In this document: piece after piece, positions 1,395-25,562 of the stretch
How positions within the stretch are numbered: the stretch's first letter is position 1
Layout: every line of letters begins with the position of its first letter
From: Piscirickettsiaceae bacterium
GTDB lineage: Bacteria > Pseudomonadota > Gammaproteobacteria > Nitrosococcales > Methylophagaceae
Direction: 5' to 3'
Assembly: GCA_013215775.1 (NCBI GenBank)
Contig: JABSQO010000018.1
Span: 1-37,039 of the forward strand
Length of the DNA stretch: 37,039 nucleotides
Notes under the pieces: model-generated
Told to the model about the DNA's origin: nothing
Databases searched by the model: none
The model's input: only the letters and a program-made list of their open reading frames with translations
Program-made: the position numbers and the translations under genes

Positions 1395-3776
1395 ATGACT
1401 GAGTACGTGATTCCATTAGATCAATTGACCATGCAAGACGTGGATAAAGTCGGTGGTAAGAATGCTTCTCTTGGAGAGATGTTACAAAATTTAATGCCAA
1501 TGGGAGTTTGCGTACCAAATGGTTTTGCTACAACGGCAGAGGCTTACCGTGAGTTTTTAGCCCAAAATGGATTGAAAGATAGGATTGCTAAAAGATTACA
1601 TGATTTAGATGTTGCTGATGTTGCTGCATTACAGGCAGCAGGAAGTGATATTCGCAGTTGGATTATGGAGGTTTCATTTCCTGTAGCAATGGAAGCAACG
1701 ATTGATCAAGCTTATATTCAATTAGAGCAAGACTATGGTGTTGAGGTAACGTGGGCAGTGCGATCTTCTGCAACAGCAGAGGACCTACCGGATGCCTCTT
1801 TTGCTGGACAACAAGAAACATTCTTAAATGTGTCAGGTCTGAGCAATATCAAACAATCTATTCGTGCCGTGTATGCATCGCTATTTAATGATCGTGCTAT
1901 TGCGTATCGAGAGCATCAGGGATTTGATCATAACGAAGTAGCCTTGTCAGCTAGTATTCAGAAGATGGTACGTTCTGATATTGGTAGCGCTGGCGTTGTC
2001 TTCACCTTAGATACAGAAAGTGGATTTCGTGATGTCATATTTATTACTGGTAGCTATGGCTTAGGTGAAATGGTGGTACAAGGTGCAGTCAACCCAGATG
2101 AATTTTATGTCTATAAGAACACGTTAAGAGCTGGACGAGCTGCCGTACTACAGCGAAATTTAGGGCAAAAAGCGATTAAAATGGTTTATTCTGGTGACGC
2201 AAATCAGCCAGTTAAAACAGAAGCCGTATCAGCTAATGATCGACTACATTTTTGCATCAATGATAAGGAAATTCAGACACTGGCAGAAATGGCTTTAGCA
2301 ATTGAAGAGCATTATCAACGACCCATGGATATTGAATGGGCCAAAGATGGAATAGATGGCAAGATTTATATTGTGCAGGCGCGACCTGAAACGGTTCAAA
2401 GTAGACAGAAAAATGTTGTTGAAAGATATTCAATTAAACAAACAAGTCAGATACTAGCAGAAGGAAGATCGATAGGGCATAGGATTGGTAAAGGAAAAAT
2501 CCGTCTTTTGAATAACCTTAATCAAATGGATACCTTTCAAGAAGGCGATGTATTGCTGACAGACATGACTGATCCCGATTGGGAACCTATTATGAAAATA
2601 GCAGGCGCTATTGTGACCAATCGAGGTGGAAGAACTTGTCATGCAGCGATTATCGCTAGAGAATTAGGAATACCTGCAGTGGTGGGTTGTGGCGATGCAA
2701 CAGAAAAATTAGTGGAAGGAGAGGAAGTAACAGTATCTTGTGCACAAGGTGATACCGGTTATGTCTATGCTGGATTATTGGATTATGAGCACACGATTGA
2801 CAGTTTAGATAATCTGCCAGAACCTCCAGTGAAGATCATGATGAATGTAGGGAATCCTGATCGTGCATTCAGCTTCGCTCAAATACCTCATAATGGTGTG
2901 GGTCTGACTCGGTTAGAATTTATTATTAACAATATGGTCGGTATCCATCCAAAAGCATTGATGGCGGCAGATAAGATGAGTGATGAGGTACAACAGATCA
3001 TTCATGAAAAAACGACAGCCTATGCTGATCCAATAGAGTATTACGTCAGTCGCATTGCAGAAGGCGTGTCTACTATTGCAGCAGCATTTTATCCTGAACC
3101 TGTTATTGTGCGATTATCAGATTTTAAATCTAATGAATATGCCAACTTAGTCGGTGGTAGACAATTTGAACCCGACGAAGAAAATCCCATGATTGGTTAT
3201 CGTGGAGCATCCCGTTACCTATCTGCTGAATTTCGAGAATGTTTTGAGCTAGAATGCCGAGCAATGAAGCGAGTACGGAATGAGATGGGTTTAACTAACG
3301 TAGAGCTTATGATTCCCTTTATTCGTACACTAGGTGAAGCCGAAGGTGTGATTGAACTCCTGAAAGAAAATGGTCTGGAACGAGGTGAAAATGGCTTACG
3401 TTTAATTATGATGTGTGAGTTACCATCCAATGCAATATTAGCAAGTCAATTTTTAGAATTCTTTGATGGTTTTTCTATCGGATCTAACGATATGACACAG
3501 CTTACATTAGGTTTAGATCGTGATTCGGCTTTAGTTGCTGATTTATTTGATGAGCGTGATCCTGCAGTATTAAAAATGTTAGAAATGGCCATTTCAGCGT
3601 GCCATGCTGCAGGAAAATATGTTGGTATTTGTGGTCAAGGGCCATCAGATCACCCGGAATTTGCACGATGGTTAGTGAAACAAGGCATCAGTAGTATTTC
3701 ATTAAACCCTGATACTGTAGTAGCAACATGGCAGGATTTGGCCAACGAAGATGTAGCAAAAGAAGTGAAGGTCTAA
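1395..3776 (+). CDS. ppsA: Phosphoenolpyruvate synthase
   Basis: This cytoplasmic gluconeogenic enzyme makes PEP, AMP and phosphate from pyruvate and ATP. It shows the N-terminal ATP-grasp domain (roughly 1-340), the swivelling phosphohistidine domain with [12 protein letters not shown] (catalytic His416), and a C-terminal PEP/pyruvate barrel ending in [11 protein letters not shown] with the catalytic Cys746. At 793 aa it matches the usual length of about 790. The threonine target of PpsR is the residue of the TCH motif two before His416. A GAGGT ribosome site sits about 9 nt before the ATG. The stop at 3776 is one base from the end of the convergent hpnC, leaving no room for a separate terminator. 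In a C1- or organic-acid-using cell this enzyme feeds sugar synthesis. Confidence 0.98.
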
Positions 3777-3777
3777 G

Positions 3778-4689
3778 TTAACCGATTTTTGATTTTAATA
3801 ATTGGTCGGCAGATCGGCGATACCAATTCTTAGATGCACTTACGATTATTATCTTTATCATTAACCACCGACTTAATCTCGGTCTTACTAACAAGCCCGA
3901 ATCTTGTTGTTGTTTTAATAATGCTAATGTTTGGATGCCACCCAGAGTCATTGCTCTGATTTCCCATCCCATTCTTCCTGAGAGTTGGTCGCCTAAACGA
4001 TGGCCAAAAGCCATAATCTGTTCAGTACGTTGGTATAGGCTACGAATTAAAGGGGCAATTTTATGGCTATTAGCTTGCACTAAGTCCGATTCTTTTAATC
4101 CGGCAGCAGTCAATTCATCTTGTGGAATATAGATACGATCTTGCTCAGTGTAGTCCTGCATAATATCTTGATAGAAGTTAATCAACTGGAGAGCGGTACA
4201 AATAGCATCAGATTGCTGTAACTGCTGCTGTGTTGGTGTGCCGTTAAGATAGAGTAATAAGCGCCCAACAGGGTTAGCAGAGCGTTGGCAATAATCGAGT
4301 ACTTCATCAAAATTAAGATAACGATTTTTAACGACATCTTGTTTAAAAGCTGACAGAAGGTCTTCAAACAAAACTATTGGCAGTGCATGTTGCTGAATGA
4401 CATCCGCAAGTGCAATAAAAATAGGATCACTTCCCTGAAAATCATGAGCAGAAATTTGTTGTAGAGCTCGGCTATAAGTATCTAACTGTTGTAAGCGGGT
4501 ACCTTGTGTGGCATCACCTTCATCGGCAAAGTCATCAGCCGTTCGGGCAAAGGCGTAGATAACACTAATAGACCGCCTTAATCGTTTAGGTAATAGAATC
4601 GAAGCAACAGGGAAATTTTCGTAATGACTTTGTGTTAGTTGTTGGCAGAAGTCATACGCTTGTTTTAGTTGAGCATCATTTGTCTTCAC
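3778..4689 (-). CDS. hpnC: Squalene/phytoene synthase family protein, HpnC type
   Basis: The protein resembles HpnC, which in the bacterial three-enzyme route turns presqualene diphosphate into hydroxysqualene (HpnD makes presqualene diphosphate and HpnE reduces hydroxysqualene to squalene). The first aspartate-rich motif DDFADE is at 52-57 and the second, NFYQDIMQDY, at 171-180, both needed for Mg-diphosphate binding. The N-terminal SHYENFPVAS...LPKRLRR pattern is typical of HpnC. The length of 303 aa is normal. hpnD and hpnE are not in this window, so they would have to be elsewhere; the product could feed hopanoids or C30 carotenoids. The gene start overlaps the end of rmuC by 14 nt, placing it last in a five-gene minus-strand run. 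Confidence 0.85.
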   Translation of the reverse strand: MKTNDAQLKQAYDFCQQLTQSHYENFPVASILLPKRLRRSISVIYAFARTADDFADEGDATQGTRLQQLDTYSRALQQISAHDFQGSDPIFIALADVIQQHALPIVLFEDLLSAFKQDVVKNRYLNFDEVLDYCQRSANPVGRLLLYLNGTPTQQQLQQSDAICTALQLINFYQDIMQDYTEQDRIYIPQDELTAAGLKESDLVQANSHKIAPLIRSLYQRTEQIMAFGHRLGDQLSGRMGWEIRAMTLGGIQTLALLKQQQDSGLLVRPRLSRWLMIKIIIVSASKNWYRRSADQLLKSKIG

Positions 4690-5968
4690 GTTGGTCCTGC
4701 ACTTCTCGGACTTGTTTTTCTATCGGTTGTAATTCAACCAAGTCGGTTTTAGCGCGTATGCCCATCTCAACAAATTTACGTCCACTAGGCATCACATTTC
4801 GTTCAAGTGAGCCGACTGAACTATTAAAATGTTCAACACTGCTATTAAGACTTTTTCCTAATTTTTCTAGGTGGGCAGTAAAGGTTACTAAGCGTTTGTA
4901 TAAGGATTCGCCTAATTCTCGTATTTCGATCGCATTTTCAGCTAATGCTTGCTGTTTCCAACCGTAGGATACCGCCTTTAATAGGGCGATAAAATTAGTG
5001 GGGGTCGCTAAGATAATATTTTGGCTCATGCTATCTTCAAGTAAAGTGCTGTCAATTTCTAAAGCCGCAGATAAGAATTGTTCACCGGGAATAAAGAGTA
5101 CGACAAATTCAGGAGATTGGGTATATTCTGACCAATAGTTTTTAGCCGATAATTCTCTGACACGACTACGGATTATTTGAGCATGGCGCTTGAGTTCTAG
5201 TGTACGAGTGGCATCATCTTTGGCCTGCATGGCCGACAAATACGCATCGAGAGGTGTTTTTGCATCAACAATAATTTCACGGTTTTCAGGTAGTCGCACG
5301 ATCATATCTGGGCGAATAGCACCGGTTTCAGTTTTGGTATGTGTTTGTTCAAAAAAATCACAATGTGCCACCATCCCACTGAGTTCAGCAATACGACGAA
5401 GGGTCATTTCACCCCATTGCCCCCGAACTTCTGGTCGGCGGAGTGCTTGAACAAGATTGTGAGTTTCTTCCTGCAATGATTGTTGGCTTTTAGCCATGTG
5501 TTCAATAGTCGTTCGCAGACTACCGTAAGTTTCCTTGCGGTCTTTTTCTATCTCACGGATTTGCTTGCTAGTTTGATGCAAAGCATCATTAATAGGTTTG
5601 AGTAGTTGTTCAATTGCTTTTTCTTTGGTTCCTAACTCTGCTTTGGCTTCACTTTGGAAACGTTTTAGATTCTCTTCAGCAAGTTTAAGAAAGCTTGCGT
5701 TATTACGCGTTAATGCTTCGTCAGAAAGTTGATTAAAGGTATTCGCAAGTTGGGTACGAGTTTGCTCTAATATCTTATCGAGTTGTGAACTTGCCTGTCT
5801 TTCTAATGTTAATGTCAAAGATAATTCAGTGTTTTCTGATTCAAGTTGTCTGAGTTTGTAACCACGAATAAAAAACACGATGATCGCACCGACAAAGAAA
5901 CTAAGGGCTAATAATATGAGTAAGCCATTTTCTTGTTGAGAAAGTTGAATAATAAACTCTAAATCCAT
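4676..5968 (-). CDS. rmuC: DNA recombination protein RmuC
   Basis: RmuC family proteins limit inversion at short repeats and carry a predicted endonuclease-like core. The sequence has an N-terminal membrane anchor (about 15-35, ending FFIRG), a long coiled coil (about 37-180), then the RmuC core with RRPEVRGQWGEMTLRRIAEL (about 177-196) and the IIVDAKTPLDAYL block typical of the family. The 430-aa length is normal. It overlaps gph/mupP upstream by 10 nt and hpnC downstream by 14 nt, so it is translated within the same transcript. No functional tie to its neighbours is evident. Confidence 0.95.
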   Translation of the reverse strand: MDLEFIIQLSQQENGLLILLALSFFVGAIIVFFIRGYKLRQLESENTELSLTLTLERQASSQLDKILEQTRTQLANTFNQLSDEALTRNNASFLKLAEENLKRFQSEAKAELGTKEKAIEQLLKPINDALHQTSKQIREIEKDRKETYGSLRTTIEHMAKSQQSLQEETHNLVQALRRPEVRGQWGEMTLRRIAELSGMVAHCDFFEQTHTKTETGAIRPDMIVRLPENREIIVDAKTPLDAYLSAMQAKDDATRTLELKRHAQIIRSRVRELSAKNYWSEYTQSPEFVVLFIPGEQFLSAALEIDSTLLEDSMSQNIILATPTNFIALLKAVSYGWKQQALAENAIEIRELGESLYKRLVTFTAHLEKLGKSLNSSVEHFNSSVGSLERNVMPSGRKFVEMGIRAKTDLVELQPIEKQVREVQDQREDK

Positions 5969-15855: not shown

Positions 15856-17607
15856 TTAGGTTTTACCGAGTTCTTCTACTGCTTCCGTAGTGTGGAAAAA
15901 TATTTTTCCTGAGCGTAGCTGAATCATGAAATCTGTTTTTTGTAGTTTATCCATGACAGGACCTTTCACTTCAGCCAAATGCAACGTTACACCTCTATCC
16001 TTATAAGTTTTAATTGTTTTTGTTAATAATTCTATTGCTGTTGTATCAATATAGCTGACAGACGAGAAAACCAGCACTAGATGTTTTAATTTTTCATTAT
16101 TATTAGCATGTTCTTCTATAAAGTCCGCAATATAGTCTACATTTGAAAATGTAATGTTTTCATCGATTCTGAATAATAACAAGTTGTCCCATGTTTCTAC
16201 TTGATGTCGGTCCACATTTCTAAATTGCTCGGTGTTTTTAATGCGACCGATAACCGCGATATGAGGACGACTAGTTCGTCGTAAGAAACTAATGATGGTG
16301 AAAAGAACGCCAAGGGCAATGCCTTTTTCAATACCAAGAACAAGTACTCCTGCTAACGTAATAAATTGTGCAACGCCATCAGCCGCATCATATTTCCATG
16401 TAGAAATAATCTCACGGAATTTGATTAATGGTGCAATGGCAACCAGAATAATGGCGGCTAAGACTGCTTTAGGAATGGCTGAAAACTGATCGGTGAAATA
16501 GACAACAGCCAACATTAGAAAGGCTACTGCGATTAACATCGATAATTGGGTGCGAGCACCAGCAGAAAAATTGACCATAGTACGACTGAAGCCACCGGCT
16601 ACAGGCATGCCGCCGGTCACAGCTGATGCAACATTAGAGGCGCCTAGGGCAATTAACTCTTGGTTAGGCGCAATTTTTTCACCTCTTAAATTTGCAGTAA
16701 CTTTAGCAATGGCAACGCTTTCAACATACGCAATAAGGCTAATAAATGCTGCGCTTGGTAATAAGGCTATCCATGGTGATGAGGAATTAGTTATGAACGC
16801 TAAACTGATGCTGGGAAGGCCACTGACAATATGACCGACTACGCTAACGTCATGGTGCTCTGATAACTGATAATACGTTACTAAGGCCGTAGTAATAATA
16901 ATCATCAATAACGGCGCTGATTTGGTAAATGCGGTCTTTAGATGATTATGAACTTTGAAACGTGTTAGCAACCAAAATAAAGGTGCACCCATAAAAATTA
17001 ACACCAGAATGCTGAATATTCCGACCTTAGTAGTATAGGAATTAGCATGTTGAAGTTGGTCACTTAAGCAGACTAGATCCAGGCCACATGATTGTACTGG
17101 TAAGCCTAATAAATGTGGTATCTGACTCAAGACAATGAGAATAGCTGCACCACTGGTGAAACCGGCTAAGACGGGATGGCTAATAAAATTAACCAGTCCC
17201 CCCATTCGAAGTGATGCCATTAATAATAAAATGATGCCACCTTCAGCGGCTAGAATTATGGCTTGTTCAACGGGGTTACCCAATGCTTGGATTTCAGGTG
17301 CAGACAATGCGCTGGCTATCATGATGGCAGCAATAGAGACTGGCCCAACGGAAAGGGTAGTGCTTGAGCCTAAAAAAGCATAAATGATAGGGGGAAGGAT
17401 ACTGGCATACAAACCGACTTGAATGGGTAAGCCTGCCAACATGGCGTAGGCCATCCCTTGAGGTATGAATAAAATTGCAGTAATAAAACCTGCAAAAACA
17501 TCACTATTAAAATCTTGCTTTTTGTAGTTGGATAGCCAGTTTATGATGGGTAAATATTTACCCAAATTATTTTCTATAGTATTGTTTTTGTTGTGCCGAA
17601 TTGTCAT
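15856..17607 (-). CDS. SulP/SLC26 family anion transporter with STAS domain
   Basis: A 583-aa inner-membrane transporter. The N-terminal SulP domain (about 20-400) has the FAGFITAILFIPQGMAYAML signature and 10 or more membrane helices; the C-terminal STAS domain (about 450-560) includes VSYIDTTAIELL. SulP proteins move sulfate, bicarbonate or related anions. The gene is followed by a methyltransferase gene and lies 168 nt behind the sulfide:quinone oxidoreductase gene on the same strand, so it may carry sulfate or sulfite in connection with sulfide oxidation. No carbonic anhydrase gene is nearby, which makes bicarbonate less likely. Confidence 0.93.
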   Translation of the reverse strand: MTIRHNKNNTIENNLGKYLPIINWLSNYKKQDFNSDVFAGFITAILFIPQGMAYAMLAGLPIQVGLYASILPPIIYAFLGSSTTLSVGPVSIAAIMIASALSAPEIQALGNPVEQAIILAAEGGIILLLMASLRMGGLVNFISHPVLAGFTSGAAILIVLSQIPHLLGLPVQSCGLDLVCLSDQLQHANSYTTKVGIFSILVLIFMGAPLFWLLTRFKVHNHLKTAFTKSAPLLMIIITTALVTYYQLSEHHDVSVVGHIVSGLPSISLAFITNSSSPWIALLPSAAFISLIAYVESVAIAKVTANLRGEKIAPNQELIALGASNVASAVTGGMPVAGGFSRTMVNFSAGARTQLSMLIAVAFLMLAVVYFTDQFSAIPKAVLAAIILVAIAPLIKFREIISTWKYDAADGVAQFITLAGVLVLGIEKGIALGVLFTIISFLRRTSRPHIAVIGRIKNTEQFRNVDRHQVETWDNLLLFRIDENITFSNVDYIADFIEEHANNNEKLKHLVLVFSSVSYIDTTAIELLTKTIKTYKDRGVTLHLAEVKGPVMDKLQKTDFMIQLRSGKIFFHTTEAVEELGKT

Positions 17608-17775: not shown

Positions 17776-19035
17776 CTATTTGGAATCTTCTTTGGTCAGG
17801 TTTTCTACGTAACTCGCTTTATGATGCAAGTCGATACGATAGCCCTTGATCATTATTTTCCAATACAGCCATGGGAAGCCAATTATTTTGCCAAGCCACC
17901 AAATACGTCTGTTTTTTCTTGGATCGAGGAAAGGGAAGGATGGAGTCACTTTGCCGCCATAAGAAAACTCAGCCAACATCACTGTATTTAGAGAGGTGGT
18001 TAATGGGCAAGAGCCATAGCCGTCATAGCCTTCTGAGAGCGCATGTTTATTAATGAGGTTTAAAATGTTATCGACAACGATGGGAACTTGTTTACGTACT
18101 GCCGCAGCTGTTTTTGCATTAGGAGTAGATGTGGCATCGCCGAGGCCAAAAATATTGCCAAACTTATTATGCTGTAAGGAGTATTGGTTAACATCAACCC
18201 AGCCACCGTCATTAGCTAAAGGACTTTTTTTGATAAAGTCTGGGGCACTTTGTGGTGGTGTGACATGGATCATGTCGAATTTTTTGGTGATAGTGAACTT
18301 TTCACCATCGGCATTTACTGTTTCAAAGGTAGCCTTTTTTTCTTTACCGTTTATCGCTATCAAGTTGTAATTGAAATTTGTCTTAATTCGATATTTTTCA
18401 ACAACTTTATTGAGTGCTTTGGCAAAGAAAGGCACACCGAACATAGCTCCTCCGGCATTAAAGAATTCAACATTGATTTTGTTAGATAGGTTTTTCTTAC
18501 GAAAGATATCAGCGGAAAGATACATTGCTTTTTGTGGTGCACCTGCACATTTAATCGGCATAGGTGGTTGAGTGAACAAGGCCGTGCCAGATTCCATTTG
18601 TCGAACTGTTTCCCAAGTGTATTCCACAACATCAACTGAATAATTACAACAGACATTGTTTTTGCCCAAGGTCTCCCGTAAGCCGTCTATTTTGTCGATA
18701 TCAAGCTGCAAACCTGGGCAGACAACCAGATAGTCATAACTGATGACTCTGCCGTTTCGCAAGGTAACCTGATTGTTGTCAGGTTGAAACGTCTCAGCAT
18801 AATCTTTGATCCAGTTAATACTGGAATGAATGATATCGGATTGATTTTTTGTCGCTTTTTTCAGTGAATAAACACCAGCACCGATAAGGGTGAAAGACGG
18901 TTGATAATAGTGTTTATCAGAGGGTTCAACTAGGGCTATATCAAGAGCCGGAGCTTGACGGTGTAGCGTGTTAGCTGTGGATACTCCTGCAGCACCGCCG
19001 CCGATAATAAGTACAGAATAATGTTTTGTAGACAT
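17776..19035 (-). CDS. sqr: Sulfide:quinone oxidoreductase, type II (SQOR-like)
   Basis: This FAD enzyme oxidises H2S to a persulfide and passes electrons to quinone at the membrane. GGGAAGVST (12-20) binds FAD. The two redox cysteines sit in motifs nearly identical to mitochondrial SQOR: IKCAGAPQKAMYLS (Cys163) and GSCPLTTSLN (Cys343). The NIFGLGDATSTP block (about 294-305) is the second FAD site, and the aromatic, basic C-terminus (IWWLGKIIGFPWLYWK) suits membrane attachment. Type II enzymes use small acceptors such as glutathione or sulfite, which fits the adjacent persulfide dioxygenase-rhodanese gene 36 nt upstream. The length of 419 aa is normal. Confidence 0.92.
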   Translation of the reverse strand: MSTKHYSVLIIGGGAAGVSTANTLHRQAPALDIALVEPSDKHYYQPSFTLIGAGVYSLKKATKNQSDIIHSSINWIKDYAETFQPDNNQVTLRNGRVISYDYLVVCPGLQLDIDKIDGLRETLGKNNVCCNYSVDVVEYTWETVRQMESGTALFTQPPMPIKCAGAPQKAMYLSADIFRKKNLSNKINVEFFNAGGAMFGVPFFAKALNKVVEKYRIKTNFNYNLIAINGKEKKATFETVNADGEKFTITKKFDMIHVTPPQSAPDFIKKSPLANDGGWVDVNQYSLQHNKFGNIFGLGDATSTPNAKTAAAVRKQVPIVVDNILNLINKHALSEGYDGYGSCPLTTSLNTVMLAEFSYGGKVTPSFPFLDPRKNRRIWWLGKIIGFPWLYWKIMIKGYRIDLHHKASYVENLTKEDSK

Positions 19036-19071: not shown

Positions 19072-20163
19072 TTAAGCGTGTTGTTTCCATGCTTCATAAC
19101 CGCCGGCCATTGACAATACATTGGAATATCCCATATCTTGCAATACTTTGGCTGCCAGTGCTGAGCGGTTGCCAGAGCGACAATAGAGCAGGATAGTATC
19201 GGATTTGTTTTTGATCGCTTCTAAGGAATCAATTTTAAATTCGAGTACACCACGAGGCATAAACTGGGCGTTGTCTATATATCCTTCATCGACTTCATTC
19301 TGCTCGCGAACATCTATAACGCAAATAGTATCAAGATCGATAGTACTTTTAACCTTAGCGACATCAATTTCTGTTATGTATCGTTTTGCTTCATCGGTAA
19401 GATACTGCACGGTGAAATGTTTTTGCATAGGATTTACCTTCTCTGTTTGTTGTATTTCGGCCTGATTGGCTGTTTCTGGATCTACACCACAATAGCGGTT
19501 GGCGGGGACGGCTAGATCAATTAATTTAGGTTCAGGCAAATTCAGGTTGTCCATAATGTCAATGAACTGTTCTCGAGTCTTATTTGCTAAGCGAGAGTTA
19601 CTGCTACGTTCTTGTCTAACATTGCTTACCCAACGACCGTTATAATCGTGACCTGGATAAATCAAGGTGTCGTCTTGTAAGGTAAATATACGCTGAGTTA
19701 TGCTGTCATATAGGTTGCTGGCATCGCCACCTTGGAAATCTGTACGGCCACAACCATTGATTAATAAAGCATCACCGGTAAATATGCGATCACGCCATAA
19801 AAAAGAGATACTGCCTGGCGTATGACCTGGAGTGGCAATTGCTTTAATGTATTCATCTTGCGATACCTCAAAGATATCACCATCTTGAATTTGAATATCC
19901 GCTGTTTTAGCGCCACATAGTGAACTGACAGCAGTCTTACAACCTAACTGTTGTCTTAACAGGCCACTTGCTGTGATATGGTCAGCATGCACATGCGTTT
20001 CTAACGAATACTTTAAGGTGAGATTGTGTTCTTTCAATAAATCAATATAAATATCAAGATTAGTGTCTACAGGATCAATAAGGATGGCATTTTTACTATC
20101 CAGATCAGCAATTAGATAAGTATAGGTGCAGCTTTTTTCATCAAATAATTGTTTAAATAACAT
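19072..20163 (-). CDS. Persulfide dioxygenase-rhodanese fusion (ETHE1-like + rhodanese)
   Basis: The N-terminal part (about 1-225) is an ETHE1-type non-heme-iron persulfide dioxygenase with HVHADH (His57, His59, Asp61, His62) and iron ligands expected at His57, His114 and Asp131 or His172. The C-terminal part (about 255-360) is a rhodanese with active loop CRSGNRS (Cys328). Such fusions oxidise glutathione persulfide to sulfite and can move sulfane sulfur between glutathione and thiosulfate. The frame opens at a TTG (20175), but TTGAGG there is the ribosome site for the ATG at 20163, which I chose (363 aa). It lies directly before sqr, whose product supplies its substrate. Confidence 0.93.
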   Translation of the reverse strand: MLFKQLFDEKSCTYTYLIADLDSKNAILIDPVDTNLDIYIDLLKEHNLTLKYSLETHVHADHITASGLLRQQLGCKTAVSSLCGAKTADIQIQDGDIFEVSQDEYIKAIATPGHTPGSISFLWRDRIFTGDALLINGCGRTDFQGGDASNLYDSITQRIFTLQDDTLIYPGHDYNGRWVSNVRQERSSNSRLANKTREQFIDIMDNLNLPEPKLIDLAVPANRYCGVDPETANQAEIQQTEKVNPMQKHFTVQYLTDEAKRYITEIDVAKVKSTIDLDTICVIDVREQNEVDEGYIDNAQFMPRGVLEFKIDSLEAIKNKSDTILLYCRSGNRSALAAKVLQDMGYSNVLSMAGGYEAWKQHA

Positions 20164-20263
20164 GGGTGGCCTCAAAGTGTTTCTTATGTTTTTAATCGTG
20201 TTTATCTATAGTTAGAGCGCCCGATGGACATTTCTTGATGGTTAGTTCAACCTCATCTTTTTG

Positions 20264-20773
20264 TTATTGAAGATGTGCAATCAGTTTTTTCATACGGGTC
20301 CCATCCCATTCTTTTGCCCCGAGTGCCTGATATACCAGTTCACCATCAGGATTCACCAAGTAACTCATAGGTAAACCTGGAACTTTCCAACCTTTAAGGC
20401 TGGCAGTATCATCCAATACGACCTTAAAGTTAACATTGACCTGTTCTAAAAAACTTTCAATGTCATTAGATACCGGTCCAGCATGGACTGCGATGATTTC
20501 AAAGTCTATATTTTCTGCTCTTAAAGTGTCATACATTACTTGCATAGCTGGAAATTCTTTAACACACGGCGCACACCAATCAGCCCAAAAATTTACTAAT
20601 ACGTATTTGCCTTGATAGTCGCTCAAGCTAGTGGCTTGGCCGTTAACATCAGGTAGGGTAAAGTTTTTTGCAGTCGGACGGTCCTGCATCGGAAACATCA
20701 TTGGTTCCGCGTTGACGACTGCCGAGCCTATGCTTATTAGCAAGGCAAGAAGAAGGTGGTTCAATTTCATCAT
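20264..20773 (-). CDS. Periplasmic TlpA-type thioredoxin
   Basis: A 169-aa exported thioredoxin-fold protein: signal peptide about 1-22 (cut near VNA), then a TlpA/ResA-like domain with the active site WCAPC (Cys67, Cys70) and the conserved cis-proline loop LPMSYLVNPDGELVY. It is encoded immediately after the SCO-MauG fusion; the stop of that gene and this start are one base apart, so the two are translationally coupled. TlpA-type reductases keep the CXnC copper site of SCO proteins reduced, or handle cytochrome c thiols, which gives it a clear partner in this operon. Confidence 0.9.
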   Translation of the reverse strand: MMKLNHLLLALLISIGSAVVNAEPMMFPMQDRPTAKNFTLPDVNGQATSLSDYQGKYVLVNFWADWCAPCVKEFPAMQVMYDTLRAENIDFEIIAVHAGPVSNDIESFLEQVNVNFKVVLDDTASLKGWKVPGLPMSYLVNPDGELVYQALGAKEWDGTRMKKLIAHLQ

Positions 20774-20774
20774 G

Positions 20775-22775
20775 TTAGTGCTCTACCTTGGTAGTATCGC
20801 CGACAGGTGCTGTGAATGCATCGGCAATTAAATCAGCCACATTACTTCCGGTCAGTGTTTTCAAAAAGTCTATGAGCTCACTCATTTCGGTTTGGGATAA
20901 GTTAAGAGGTTTAATCAACGGAGATTGTGTTTCATTTGCAAAACCACCCTGATTATAGAATTCTACAACTTGCTCTAAATTGTTAAGTGAACCATCGTGC
21001 ATATAGGGTGCTGTTAGCGCTATATTTCTTAGACTTGGCGTCCGATAACGCCAACGATCAGCAGGATCTTGTGTGATTTCATAGTAGCCAAGATCACTAA
21101 CGGGTTTATAGCCAGCCTTGATTTTTGTGGCATATTTCACTGAAATATAGTGGCCTGGGGCAATGAGTATTCTTTCTGATTCTGGCTCTTTACCCATGGA
21201 AACATTCCAACCCAATCCGGTGTTATGCAGTTGATTATCGGTGAATAAAGCATGTTTCTCAGAAACAGTGTGACACGCAATACACTGCGCTTTACCTCTA
21301 AATAAGTTAAAACCACGTTGTGCCGTTTCTGAAATAGCATTTTGTTCTTTACCATAATGCCAACGGTCAAAATCAGAATTGCCAGATACCAGCACTCGCT
21401 GATAACTTGCTAGTGCTTGCCCAATAGTAACAACAGAGGTTTTTTTGCCATCAAAAGCTTGTTCAAATAAGCCGTTGTAGTCGGACATGCCTTCGATTTT
21501 TTCGATTACTTTACCTATGGATGGCATCGCCATTTCATTTGGTGCTAAAAAAGGCCCCCAGACTTGATTTTCTAATGTGCTTTCTCGGCCATCATGAAAC
21601 AGTGCCGTTAAGTAGGCCGTGTTATAAATGGTTGGCGAATTACGACGCACCACACGACCTTCAAACCCCAGTGGTTTTTCCAATTCATTGTTGGTAAAAC
21701 CTTGTTCGGGTATATGACACATGGCACAGGAGTTTGTATCATTTAGAGAGAGGCGGCGGTCGAAAAACAGTTTCTTACCTAACTCGACTTTGTCAAAAGT
21801 AATCGGGTTATCAGCCGGTACAGGTATTTTGGGTAGACCAAGTGGTGGTGTGTCTAATACCTTTAACAGGTCCGTTTTTGTACCTTTTCGGGCAGTGATA
21901 CTGAGTGAGCTGGTACTGTAATCAGCCGAGCCATAATTATTTTTATTATCACCAGGGCCGACACGAACGGCTGAATTTGTTGAAGAGATCTCTTCGATAA
22001 GCGGTAGTGTTTTATCTTCTTCTAATAACAAAGTTTTTACATCGTTAAGAATAATATCAGGGTGCAAAAATGACACACTGTATATATTGCGAATTTTAAG
22101 CTCAGGGTCAATCAAAAATACTCGCATAATATGGGAAAATGTTTCAGTTTCTGTACCATCATCGCTGATTCTTGTTTGAATGGACTGGCCATAATTGTCA
22201 AGAATAGGGTACAGAGTTTTCAATGAGTCAGCAGTAAGGTAAGTCCAACTCATTTTCTGTTCTTTGGACATAGTATGTCCTTGATGACCTTTATGTTGGT
22301 CATGGCCACCATGGCCTGCATGTTCATCATGAGCACCACCACTGACTGCTTTTAACACAGCAGGAGTGTCATTCTCGGGATCAAAACTCATGCTAACCAG
22401 TTGCATTTTATTGCTTAAACCTGGCGTTTTACTGGCTTCTTGTTTAATGCGGTTAAATACAATCTGTGTTAGTGGGCAGCCATTAAGATCATTACAACGG
22501 CTATACATAAAACTTAATAAAGTATATTTTCCTTTGAATAAATCATGATAGTTAACATATTGACCATCTACATTTAATACTTTTGCATCATGGGCAGAGC
22601 CAAAGGCAGGCAGGGTGTAACTGCCTGCCTCGGGTGCCGTAAAATCTAATTCACCATATCCTGGAGCGATTAATTGAACTTGTTGCTGATCACTTTCTTG
22701 CTCTGCAGCGAAGCTGATACTACAGAACAGTGCTGTGATTGTTATTAAACCAACTTTTAAACCAGAATATAGCAT
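20775..22775 (-). CDS. SCO1/SenC-MauG fusion: copper chaperone-like domain joined to a diheme cytochrome c peroxidase/MauG domain
   Basis: A 666-aa exported protein with two enzyme-type halves. After a signal peptide (about 1-23) comes a SCO1/SenC-like thioredoxin fold (about 50-260) with Cys94 and Cys100 in CX5C spacing and His215 as candidate copper ligands. It carries an insertion with histidines at 149, 152, 155, 158, 161, 164 and 167, an exact three-residue period. From about 310 comes a MauG/cytochrome c peroxidase domain with two heme sites, CAMCH (Cys350, Cys353) and CIACH (Cys499, Cys502). In Hyphomicrobium mtoX is accompanied by separate SCO1/SenC and MauG genes; here both are on one chain 18 nt after mtoX. 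Likely roles are copper loading, cofactor maturation or peroxide removal for MtoX. Confidence 0.9.
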   Translation of the reverse strand: MLYSGLKVGLITITALFCSISFAAEQESDQQQVQLIAPGYGELDFTAPEAGSYTLPAFGSAHDAKVLNVDGQYVNYHDLFKGKYTLLSFMYSRCNDLNGCPLTQIVFNRIKQEASKTPGLSNKMQLVSMSFDPENDTPAVLKAVSGGAHDEHAGHGGHDQHKGHQGHTMSKEQKMSWTYLTADSLKTLYPILDNYGQSIQTRISDDGTETETFSHIMRVFLIDPELKIRNIYSVSFLHPDIILNDVKTLLLEEDKTLPLIEEISSTNSAVRVGPGDNKNNYGSADYSTSSLSITARKGTKTDLLKVLDTPPLGLPKIPVPADNPITFDKVELGKKLFFDRRLSLNDTNSCAMCHIPEQGFTNNELEKPLGFEGRVVRRNSPTIYNTAYLTALFHDGRESTLENQVWGPFLAPNEMAMPSIGKVIEKIEGMSDYNGLFEQAFDGKKTSVVTIGQALASYQRVLVSGNSDFDRWHYGKEQNAISETAQRGFNLFRGKAQCIACHTVSEKHALFTDNQLHNTGLGWNVSMGKEPESERILIAPGHYISVKYATKIKAGYKPVSDLGYYEITQDPADRWRYRTPSLRNIALTAPYMHDGSLNNLEQVVEFYNQGGFANETQSPLIKPLNLSQTEMSELIDFLKTLTGSNVADLIADAFTAPVGDTTKVEH

Positions 22776-22793
22776 TGAATTACCTAACTAGAT

Positions 22794-24176
22794 TTATTTG
22801 TTCAACGCTACAGTTGTAGCATCTTGAGTTTCTACTTTCGCTTGTTTTCCATACAGAGAATAAGCACCAAAACGCATTTGATGTGCACGTCCTAGTTTTT
22901 CTTCAATGAAATCGATGCTGAATTTTTCAGTCATTTCTGTACCATCCCAATGGAATAGTTTTAAGAACTGATCATTCTCTTCACCTTTCTTATCCCAGTT
23001 ACCTAGTAAAGACGTGGTGTAGTACAAGCGTGTGCCATCCCAGCTTGAAGAAACCATGTTGACGTGGTGGCCCATTTTTCTTTCATATTTCACAAAAGGG
23101 TTATAAGGGTCAGTAATATCATAACCACGTGTCATTCCATCCATGAAGCTGTTGACCCATAGTGTTTTGTCATCACTACTGATTGAGATATCTACAGGTA
23201 ATGGAATGTCAGCTGGATTGCCGATATCAGCAACATTTGTTGCTTTCCATAAACCACCAAGCTCTTCTTCTTCAAGTAAAACAATTTGTGAAGTCAAAGC
23301 GGTAGTTGTAAAGCAGTAGTTGTGCTCTGGCAGCCATGCGCAACGAATTTCAAGCGGTGCACCTGGTACATCGATTACTTGTTTTGCTTTACGTGTATGT
23401 AAATCCCAAATGACGACGGTGTTACCAAAGCGTTTCATTGCTTCTTGATCGCCTAACATTTCACCAAAGTCCATCATGTAGTTTGACCAACCCGTAAACG
23501 AGCTTGTTAACATGACATTACGGCGTGGTAAGGCACGGATATCGTAACCATAACCATCGGCATATTGACCGGATTTAATCGCGCCTTCTAGATTTTCATC
23601 CGTAGGCATCCAATAAGTATCAATATACTCACCTTCATTAGTGTATTCGACTAATGCTGTACGGCCACCATGATCTTGGTTATTAGATAAACCTGTGACG
23701 ATCATTCTTCCTGGTAATGCATAGGTCGTATGAGGGCCAACTACACCACCACTTTTACTTACAAAGTCATCAATGGTTTGAACCAATGTCGCTTTTGCTG
23801 GATCAGTGTGAACATCAAAGATAAAGATTTTATTTGAATCTAATGCGCCCGCCCAAAGATATTTACGATCATCGGTGAAACCAGAGTGATGCGCTTCATT
23901 ACGCCCACCTACAGATTCAGTGTAAATAACTTTACCATAATCGGCAGAGTCTGGATTTACAGCGACGGTAACCATTTTATCTTGACCATCACCCAGACCT
24001 TCCATACCTAAAGTCCATACATAGACAAAATCTTCTTGACCAACAATTTTAGCCATATACGGTGACATGCAGGTTTCATCTGCCATCACTGGGTTAGCCA
24101 TCATTACTGATGCTGATGCTAGTGCCATTGGCAGCAACACCTTCATAGTTTTTCGTAATTTAGTTTTTATATTCAT
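22794..24176 (-). CDS. mtoX: Methanethiol oxidase (SBP56/selenium-binding protein family), periplasmic
   Basis: The mature part matches the SBP56 family throughout: CMSPYMAKIVGQEDFVYVW, GGRNEAHHSGF, VGPHTTYALPGRM, EIRCAWLPEHNYCFTT and the C-terminal beta-propeller blades. Bacterial members are copper-dependent methanethiol oxidases giving formaldehyde, H2S and H2O2. A signal peptide (about 1-32, ending NPVMA) places it in the periplasm, as in Hyphomicrobium. The 460-aa length is normal with the leader. An AGGA site lies 8 nt before the ATG. The operon supplies what the reaction needs: SCO-MauG for copper and maturation, then sulfide-oxidising enzymes for the H2S. A role in selenium binding is the older family name and not the better reading here. 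Confidence 0.93.
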   Translation of the reverse strand: MNIKTKLRKTMKVLLPMALASASVMMANPVMADETCMSPYMAKIVGQEDFVYVWTLGMEGLGDGQDKMVTVAVNPDSADYGKVIYTESVGGRNEAHHSGFTDDRKYLWAGALDSNKIFIFDVHTDPAKATLVQTIDDFVSKSGGVVGPHTTYALPGRMIVTGLSNNQDHGGRTALVEYTNEGEYIDTYWMPTDENLEGAIKSGQYADGYGYDIRALPRRNVMLTSSFTGWSNYMMDFGEMLGDQEAMKRFGNTVVIWDLHTRKAKQVIDVPGAPLEIRCAWLPEHNYCFTTTALTSQIVLLEEEELGGLWKATNVADIGNPADIPLPVDISISSDDKTLWVNSFMDGMTRGYDITDPYNPFVKYERKMGHHVNMVSSSWDGTRLYYTTSLLGNWDKKGEENDQFLKLFHWDGTEMTEKFSIDFIEEKLGRAHQMRFGAYSLYGKQAKVETQDATTVALNK

Positions 24177-24248: not shown

Positions 24249-25451
24249 TTAAAATTCCCAAGTAACACCACCACCAGCGGTATAAATCGAAGTTTCTATT
24301 TTATTGGCACCGACAGTTTGGTCTGAGCCCCAACCGTAGCCGACATGTACATCTGCATGGATAGAATCAGTAAATGCATAACCCAGACCAGCGGTTATAC
24401 TGTTGTTCCAGAATGGGTCAGCTAAAGACGATTGGATAAACTGAATTACAGCTGGATTAACATCTCCGACTCCTTCAAGGGACGTCAATTTACCGACTGA
24501 ATTCCCTAAGCCATTCTTTTTCAATAAGTCGGTTGTGTAACTATAACCCGCTCTTAGTTTGATTTTGCTGTTGAGCGCGTATTGACCACCTAATTGGAAG
24601 GTGTAGGTGTCTTTCCAGATATCTTGATATAACTCAGAATTATCCCAGTTTTTGTAGATAACATTGGCTTCGACTAAAAGATTACTCCACATCGCGGGTG
24701 TACTGGCAACACCAACGATGAATTCTTGTGGTTGCTCGAGGGTTAAACTTTGAAATTTGCTGTTTTTATCTTTAACAACGTTATCGAAATCTAGATTTAG
24801 TTCAGAGTTGTAGTTAGCAGACAGCATCACCGGGCCTAGATCATGAGTGATACCAAATCCACCACGAACACCAAATGTTTCTTGTATACCAGTGTTAGAA
24901 ATAAGACCAATCTCAAGTATGCTGTATGCCAGTGTCATTGAAGCACCAATAGAGGTATTAGGTGTAAGTGCATAACCCGCAGCCATATTTGCACCAAAGG
25001 TCATAAATGTGACTGTCGGATCACCTATATCCATAGATCGGTAGTCAGCACCCAGCCCCGAAACGAGCTGTAAACCACCACCAAGGACTAATTTATCGGT
25101 TATACGTTGGCGCACTGCAATTGTAGGTAGGAGATAATGTTCAAACTCGATGTCACCTTTTTGGCCACCTGTCTCAAGCGTATTATCTACATTTGCGTAG
25201 GTAGCACCGAAGGTAAAATCGGTATCACCTTTTAATTGTGTTAGTGTCGCTGCATTACCATAGACAGAAGCCACTGCATCTTGTGGGGCAACATAACCAA
25301 CGCCACCCATCGCAGCTGACGTTGGGTTGAATTTTAGATTGAAATCAGAACCAATTGATTGTGCCATTGAAGCTGTAGATATCAATAAACCTGTTATACC
25401 AAAAGCGGACAACTTCATAATGCGATTAAATTTCTTCATATTGTGTTTCAT
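24249..25451 (-). CDS. OmpP1/FadL-family outer-membrane channel
   Basis: A 400-aa outer-membrane barrel protein with signal peptide (about 1-31, ending ASMAQ), then the FadL-type N-terminal hatch (NPTSAAMGGVGYVAPQDAVA...YGNAATL) and a barrel ending in phenylalanine (GGGVTWEF). FadL relatives admit hydrophobic molecules such as fatty acids, toluene or alkanes. The frame opens at 25523, but the ATG at 25451 has GAGAGGAAT 6 nt before it and starts the signal peptide properly. It is the first gene before mtoX, with a 72-nt gap, so a small hydrophobic sulfur compound such as methanethiol, dimethyl sulfide or dimethyl disulfide is a candidate substrate. This is inference from position. Confidence 0.9.
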   Translation of the reverse strand: MKHNMKKFNRIMKLSAFGITGLLISTASMAQSIGSDFNLKFNPTSAAMGGVGYVAPQDAVASVYGNAATLTQLKGDTDFTFGATYANVDNTLETGGQKGDIEFEHYLLPTIAVRQRITDKLVLGGGLQLVSGLGADYRSMDIGDPTVTFMTFGANMAAGYALTPNTSIGASMTLAYSILEIGLISNTGIQETFGVRGGFGITHDLGPVMLSANYNSELNLDFDNVVKDKNSKFQSLTLEQPQEFIVGVASTPAMWSNLLVEANVIYKNWDNSELYQDIWKDTYTFQLGGQYALNSKIKLRAGYSYTTDLLKKNGLGNSVGKLTSLEGVGDVNPAVIQFIQSSLADPFWNNSITAGLGYAFTDSIHADVHVGYGWGSDQTVGANKIETSIYTAGGGVTWEF

Positions 25452-25562
25452 ACTATTCCTCTCTCTGAGAATGTAATTGACTGAATTAATAAGGGTCTTT
25501 AGCTTTTTCACATAGGTAAACATAAGTATTATTTTTCAATATGTATACCGTATAGTTATATA

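Follow-up and report, generated by a model that had tools for sequence, protein, structure and literature searches.

Methanethiol oxidase (MtoX), an SBP56-family enzyme, has been described alongside two accessory functions, a SCO1/SenC copper chaperone and a MauG-like diheme protein. In Methylophaga thiooxydans these two are fused into one chain, with the gene order mtoX, sco1/mauG, tlpA, pdo, sqr, sulP (PMC5739008, PMC6548844), and both fusion genes of this organism are induced along with mtoX on dimethyl sulfide (DMS; PMC6548844). Copper has been demonstrated in the native enzyme from Hyphomicrobium, and a tryptophan-derived cofactor, tryptophan tryptophylquinone (TTQ), has already been proposed for MtoX (PMC5739008). 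We analyzed a locus of this kind at positions 20775-24176 of a 37,039-nucleotide (nt) stretch, hereafter the window, from a Piscirickettsiaceae bacterium (assembly GCA_013215775.1, contig JABSQO010000018.1), in which mtoX is followed by a single gene joining a SCO1 domain to a diheme domain.

A prediction made earlier from the letters of this stretch (the original prediction) had set the fusion against the separate genes of Hyphomicrobium. The separate encoding of SCO and MauG functions in Hyphomicrobium agrees with PMC5739008, and the fusion is real, but the contrast is not a new one: the same paper reports the fusion in M. thiooxydans, and the architecture is thus not new. What is added here relative to print is the genome-wide co-occurrence of mtoX with the diheme gene, the assignment of the diheme half as MbnH/MauG-like, and its linkage both to Trp230 of MtoX and to the cysteine motif of the SCO domain. 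In the excerpted open-licence literature, we found no mention of the link between W230 and the diheme or of the link involving the CX5CP motif. The sequence evidence consists of the fusion itself, near-strict co-occurrence with mtoX, a tyrosine at the ligand column, and a joint change of diheme, Trp230 and SCO loop in one clade. On this basis we lean towards a reading in which the 666-amino acid (aa) fusion protein has two parts and is devoted to maturing MtoX, an exported copper oxidase, with the diheme half oxidizing MtoX at or through Trp230.

The fusion gene directly follows mtoX

The mtoX gene, the fusion gene and the genes downstream of them all lie on the reverse strand. The mtoX product (22794-24176, 460 aa) reaches 733.6 bits with the MtoX equivalog of NCBIfam (NF052453, cut-off 650), and its structure model matches 2ECE and lactonase-like propellers first. 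Nitrous oxide reductase, another propeller copper enzyme, was matched after these. The putative copper ligands are conserved, namely His96-His97 (codons at 23886-23891; named as putative in PMC5739008 and PMC10936201), His149 (23730-23732) and His432 (22881-22883). The codon of Trp230, the residue that tracks the diheme gene, lies at 23487-23489 and aligns with W223 of Ruegeria pomeroyi MtoX. Judged by eye, the N-termini of both MtoX and the fusion protein resemble Sec signal peptides.

As predicted, a single SCO1-diheme chain (20775-22775) begins 18 nt after mtoX, as borne out by the open reading frames and by profile searches. Pfam matches within it comprise SCO1-SenC (residues 67-159), CCP_MauG (328-477) and a weaker Cytochrom_C (486-641). 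Combined with the structure model and fold matches, these place the SCO1/SenC domain at about residues 37-253 (22017-22667) and the diheme domain at about residues 311-655 (20811-21845), with heme-binding motifs CAMCH (350-354; 21714-21728) and CIACH (498-502; 21270-21284) and a predicted axial ligand at Tyr607 (20955-20957). The model has a mean pLDDT of 67.7, with low-confidence stretches at 256-276 and 280-297 between the two domains. A fold search with it returned MbnH (6E1C) first, and copper-bound ScoI (6N5U) among shorter, SCO-sized matches. The SCO assignment is supported by this thioredoxin-like fold and by a distal histidine, His215, present in 89 of 90 distinct fusions. In place of the canonical CX3CP, the copper/thiol motif is CX5CP (C94-NDLNG-C100-P; 22473-22496). 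The SCO domain also carries a His-rich insert (residues 149-167; 22275-22331), which we rejected as a general copper site, such inserts being found in only 4 of the 90 fusions.

With both domains in one chain adjoining mtoX, the protein corresponds to the published SCO1-MauG fusion. A frameshift is ruled out as its source by the collection of 90 distinct fusions, each in a single frame, and an assembly artefact by a 90%-identical fusion that adjoins mtoX in Methylophaga sp. NORP93 (L004), the nearest relative among the best 80 of 304 loci. In a tree of diheme sequences, the fused or free state requires six changes, two of them forced by supported branches. An apparent fusion of MtoX to SCO at L168 and L167 was rejected as the product of a spurious long upstream frame.

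The diheme gene co-occurs with mtoX across genomes

We scanned GTDB contigs with the fusion and kept the best 80 of 304 coding relatives. In this set, mtoX lies directly upstream of the fusion at 54 loci (median distance between match ends, 192.5 nt) and 4-6 kb away at 2. It was not found in the flanking DNA of the other 24, which extends at least 5.5 kb upstream for 13 of them and less than 2 kb for 7. Genome-wide, mtoX was present in all 34 genomes searched, comprising 26 without a directly adjacent mtoX and 8 controls. The fusion does not, then, occur mostly without mtoX; had it done so, this would have spoken against the original prediction.

Many methanotroph genomes carry a solitary SCO-diheme fusion gene away from mtoX and among unrelated neighbors (L017, L020, L030, L041, L043, L045, L052, L055, L057, L081 and others). 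A second dedicated substrate for the fusion is not supported, as the neighbors at 17 loci without a directly adjacent mtoX are seemingly unrelated, close relatives excepted. Elsewhere, a second, free-standing diheme orthologue adjoins the fusion (L006:8077-9363, L075:7808-9148, L083:2094-3404, L013:2084-3394, L160:8132-9445 and L161:4323-5663) or directly follows mtoX with the fusion on another contig (L119:2896-4302). At L202 (genome G792), tandem mtoX copies with 71% and 60% identity to the R. pomeroyi query precede one SCO and one diheme gene.

An MtoX match at E ≤ 1e-30 was obtained in 40 of 370 Gammaproteobacteria genomes, two of the matches being distant SBP56 proteins; in the other 38 the best match is at least 58% identical, which we define as close MtoX. 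A diheme orthologue was found in 37 of the 38 and in none of the 332 others (Fisher p = 3e-50, uncorrected for kinship). Thirty-six of these orthologues match at E ≤ 1e-100, and that of G060 was accepted from an adjacent 53% partial match at 6e-87. Weaker diheme matches (38-45% identity, E from 5e-88 to 8e-61) occur in 19 further genomes that lack mtoX. The line between these and orthologues is our own choice; a diheme tree rooted on MbnH places the two best of them, from G194 and G263, outside the mto group (106 rows, SH-aLRT 92). In a sample of 397 Pseudomonadota genomes, all seven with close MtoX have an adjacent diheme (three are shared with the Gammaproteobacteria sample), and the four with distant SBP56 gave no diheme match at E ≤ 1e-60. 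Two of the 390 others have a diheme match. That of G420 is outside the mto group; that of G587 is considered below.

Such near-strict co-occurrence, which holds even where the genes are unlinked, together with the linkage to Trp230 and the SCO motif described below, lends good support to the predicted service of both SCO and diheme functions to MtoX. The further claim that both are needed is too strong, as mtoX and SCO persist in one clade for which no diheme was found, and as recombinant MtoX made in E. coli without these partners shows some activity (PMC10936201).

The diheme half is MbnH/MauG-like

By sequence, the best solved relative of the diheme half is MbnH (6E1C, 157.9 bits), compared with 136.5 bits for the best cytochrome c peroxidase and 82.4 bits for the best MauG. 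Its scores against the MbnH model TIGR04039 (252.8 bits) and the MauG model TIGR03791 (222.3 bits) are below the respective cut-offs of 362.85 and 443.85, and we therefore describe it as working like these proteins rather than as a member of either named family. Two CXXCH motifs and a tyrosine replacing the axial methionine give it the MauG/MbnH-type arrangement. Column 607 is tyrosine in 88 of 90 distinct fusions (the remaining two rows are gapped there), in 12 of 12 free dihemes and in MbnH, whereas the N. europaea peroxidase 1IQC has methionine. The diheme half thus does not have the methionine ligand of the electron-transfer heme found in classical bacterial cytochrome c peroxidases, and the predicted tyrosine ligand argues against an enzyme of that class.

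Trp230 and the SCO cysteine motif change where no diheme is found

Across 107 distinct MtoX sequences, several tryptophans are invariant and unlike the distant SBP56 proteins, most clearly W230 and W379. We also surveyed plasmids, using 18 of 35 records with an SBP56/MtoX match. In two Skermanella and two Microvirga species, MtoX is encoded on a plasmid, is 59-65% identical and has an adjoining SCO gene, and a search confined to the plasmid found no diheme at E ≤ 1e-20. Likewise, no diheme was found genome-wide at E ≤ 1e-20 in the alphaproteobacterial genomes G841 and G811 (99% complete).

Residue 230 is tryptophan in 114 of 120 distinct MtoX; the six exceptions (K, K, F, F, L, L) are those for which no diheme was found. 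Conversely, 113 of the 114 come from loci or genomes in which a diheme was found, the remaining one being G247. Ninety-seven columns are conserved at 99% or more among the 114, and W230 is the only one of these altered in all six; seven others are altered in one to four of the six. Three slightly less conserved positions (G203, L259 and W340, in 97-98% columns) are also altered in all six, and W394 and W379 are retained throughout. In a tree built with column 230 blanked, the six form one clade (SH-aLRT 99) beside the diheme-bearing Ruegeria group (support 92, rooted on distant SBP56 with long branches), and residue 230 still varies within this clade. With one genome available from the genus of G841 and two from its family, a search did not enlarge the clade.

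The distant SBP56 proteins show a different pattern. None of 19 has tryptophan in the W230 column, and 18 have one three columns upstream that could be its counterpart, while the W394 column is tryptophan in 16. These 19 omit L186 and L189, two of the 13 distant plasmid sequences, and include the solved chain 2ECE and one from L075, whose genome also has a diheme; genome-wide absence of a diheme was checked for six. The MtoX model places W394 within a loop of low confidence and W230 within a short helix, and is compatible with either closeness or separation of the two. From these alignments, Trp230 appears to be the best candidate for a target or docking site of the diheme half. The hypothesis of a modified residue in MtoX, which the original prediction shared, is here narrowed to Trp230.

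The SCO cysteine motif behaves similarly. The alignment has CX5CP in all 90 fusions and in 14 of 14 free mto-SCOs, and the motif is also present in R. pomeroyi and four further diheme-bearing loci, whereas all six diheme-less mtoX loci have CX3CP. At these loci the two-residue insertion thus accompanies the diheme and not mtoX as such. The six diheme-less SCO proteins are nearest to the mto-SCOs (33-48% identity, 119-178 bits), compared with 21-32% and 43-58 bits for the other SCO of the window genome and 35-40% and 78-102 bits for the SCO adjoining a distant SBP56 gene in G308, itself CX3CP. Among 25 plasmid records matching the R. pomeroyi SCO, identity of at least 38% was found only in the five mtoX plasmids.

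The G308 locus (L155) encodes a distant SBP56 with a signal-like N-terminus (3461-4681) and, 18 nt downstream, the canonical SCO (4700-5338); this SBP56 has no tryptophan at the 230, 379 or 394 columns, and no diheme was found in the genome. In Paracoccus, Phaeobacter and the haloarchaeon Natronococcus (L180, L182, L191), distant SBP56 genes are directly followed by a gene for a 2Fe-2S protein.

Possible roles of the two halves

In the reading we favor, the SCO domain would deliver copper to the histidine site of MtoX (96/97/149/432). It would probably be kept reduced by the adjoining TlpA-like exported thioredoxin (20264-20773, identified by profile and fold-match searches), a possible reductant of the SCO cysteines by analogy with the TlpA-ScoI complex 4TXO among the listed matches. 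For its part, the MbnH/MauG-type diheme domain, with a tyrosine as predicted axial ligand, would oxidize MtoX at or through Trp230, presumably to a modified residue. MauG acts in this way on methylamine dehydrogenase, and a diheme partner may do so on the copper protein MopE; a kynurenine result has reportedly been obtained for MbnP. Action of the diheme half on MtoX at or through Trp230 is the most likely course.

What happens at Trp230 could take several forms. The published TTQ proposal, a special case of our reading, would have the MauG-like domain cross-link Trp230 and Trp394. It has been put forward for Hyphomicrobium and R. pomeroyi, whose W223 and W386 occupy the same columns (PMC5739008, PMC10936201), and the tracking of the diheme by W230 agrees with it. 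A cross-link would not, however, explain the conservation of W394 in all six diheme-less MtoX and in most distant SBP56. The latter also have no tryptophan in the W230 column itself, although the upstream one may be its counterpart, and among solved structures MbnH, not MauG, comes closest to the diheme; we consider this chemistry possible but doubtful. Retention of W394 without a diheme leans instead toward a single-tryptophan change as reported for MopE, in which a kynurenine derived from tryptophan takes part in the copper site (PMC3621798). We would tentatively extend this, with no greater confidence than we give the cross-link, to a scheme in which MtoX stands beside MopE and MbnP as a copper protein that needs diheme oxidation of Trp230 to a kynurenine- or hydroxytryptophan-like group, not TTQ. 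The SCO would have been reshaped (CX5CP) to work with the diheme, which would be why the two so often form one chain, and the exceptional clade would have become able to do without the diheme through abandoning Trp230. Slightly less probable in our view is that W230 serves the diheme protein as a site of docking or electron entry while staying chemically unchanged. Interface residues, too, are released from constraint when a partner is lost, and G203, L259 and W340 changed in all six as well; against this, only W230 among the 97 most conserved columns changed in every one, and to three different residues.

Two further explanations strike us as unlikely. The linkage could reflect clade history, one alphaproteobacterial branch having lost the diheme with unrelated changes in W230 and the SCO loop: this is a single clade and a single event, with a few other conserved columns altered too. 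The changes nevertheless hit an otherwise invariant tryptophan and the cysteine loop of the partner SCO, and residue 230 keeps varying within the clade. To a similarly small degree we credit a protective role, also raised in the original prediction, in which the diheme is a peroxidase clearing hydrogen peroxide that MtoX generates, copper loading is the sole task of the SCO, and being fused holds both close to their substrate. Methanethiol oxidase is reported to make hydrogen peroxide (PMC10362175), the diheme superfamily includes peroxidases, and M. thiooxydans induces catalase and peroxiredoxin on DMS (PMC6548844). Yet recombinant R. pomeroyi MtoX gave no hydrogen peroxide (PMC10936201), the axial ligand column is tyrosine rather than methionine, and peroxide removal would not explain why the diheme tracks one residue of MtoX.

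Several observations weigh against dedicated maturation of MtoX at Trp230. Because the six diheme-less MtoX form one clade, the linkage amounts to one event and Fisher values are only descriptive, and the search for a diheme covered the whole genome for only two of the six (G841 and G811) and the plasmid alone for the other four. The docking role set out above could account for W230. G247 has W230 with no diheme found; its mtoX runs into a contig end downstream, the side on which a diheme gene would be expected. The alphaproteobacterium G587 holds an mto-group diheme (L209:5881-7101, best identity about 52%) with no SCO or MtoX found within 13 kb and no MtoX match in the genome at E ≤ 1e-15. 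An mto-group diheme can therefore exist without MtoX, an exception that touches exclusivity more than the choice of target residue and leaves our overall assessment unchanged. Tyrosine also occupies the ligand column in the four inspected dihemes from mtoX-less genomes, those of G194, G263, G420 and G587, and therefore marks the wider MbnH/MauG kind, not the mto group.

Activity without a diheme partner is a further counterpoint, seen in both human SELENBP1 and R. pomeroyi MtoX (PMC10362175, PMC10936201). SELENBP1 made in E. coli is active with copper (PMC10362175), and the diheme is therefore dispensable in that relative. R. pomeroyi MtoX, also from E. coli and with only its own gene described as cloned, oxidized 77 uM methanethiol at 0.3 mg/mL in 30 min (PMC10936201). 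By our arithmetic the rate comes to about 9 nmol per mg per min. For native Hyphomicrobium MtoX the Vmax is about 16 umol per mg per min (PMC5739008), roughly 1900-fold higher, a comparison that spans different species and assays and in which a rate may not have been the aim of the recombinant work. MtoX made without these partners thus has some activity, far below the native level. So low a rate fits a need for maturation without demonstrating one.

Genomic surroundings and implications

Beyond the TlpA-like gene, the cluster continues with a persulfide dioxygenase-like protein of metallo-beta-lactamase (MBL) and rhodanese domains (19072-20175), assigned by profiles and in the same slot as in M. 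thiooxydans. A sulfide:quinone reductase-like flavoprotein (17776-19035) is likewise supported by profiles and the published cluster, and a SulP-type sulfate/sulfite permease (15856-17607) is named from its slot in that cluster. Directly upstream of mtoX lies a gene for a FadL/TodX-like outer-membrane protein (24249-25523), as also in Methylophaga sp. NORP93; it is a possible route for volatile sulfur compounds.

A protein-derived cofactor in MtoX has been an open suggestion since 2017, and the comparison made here turns it into a question about one residue, Trp230. Skermanella, Microvirga, G841 and G811, with residue 230 altered and no diheme found, provide a natural comparison group. W230 together with a CX5CP SCO offers a simple sequence signature for methanethiol oxidases whose maturation may rely on a diheme, with bearing on the annotation of DMS and methanethiol degraders and on the expression of MtoX for study.

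Comparison with known systems

The closest described systems are mto-clusters 1 and 2 of M. thiooxydans (PMC6548844, 2019), whose order of mtoX, sco1/mauG fusion, tlpA, pdo, sqrB and sulP is that of the window and in which signal peptides were likewise predicted on MtoX and the fusion. M. thiooxydans has two such clusters, whereas mtoX and the fusion each occur once in the window genome. The mtoX-SCO1/senC-mauG genes of Hyphomicrobium sp. VS cover the same three functions, with SCO and diheme on separate genes (PMC5739008).

MauG of methylamine dehydrogenase is likewise a diheme protein with a tyrosine axial ligand (MauG Tyr294) and a genetic partner of its presumed substrate; it differs in that the window diheme is below the MauG cut-off and a quinone cofactor in MtoX is only hypothetical. 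In MbnH/MbnP, MopE/SACCP and CorA/CorB, a MauG-like diheme protein is paired with a partner, as it is here (PMC3621798). Unlike in those pairs, the partner in this locus is a copper oxidase with a propeller fold, and the diheme shares its chain with a SCO chaperone.

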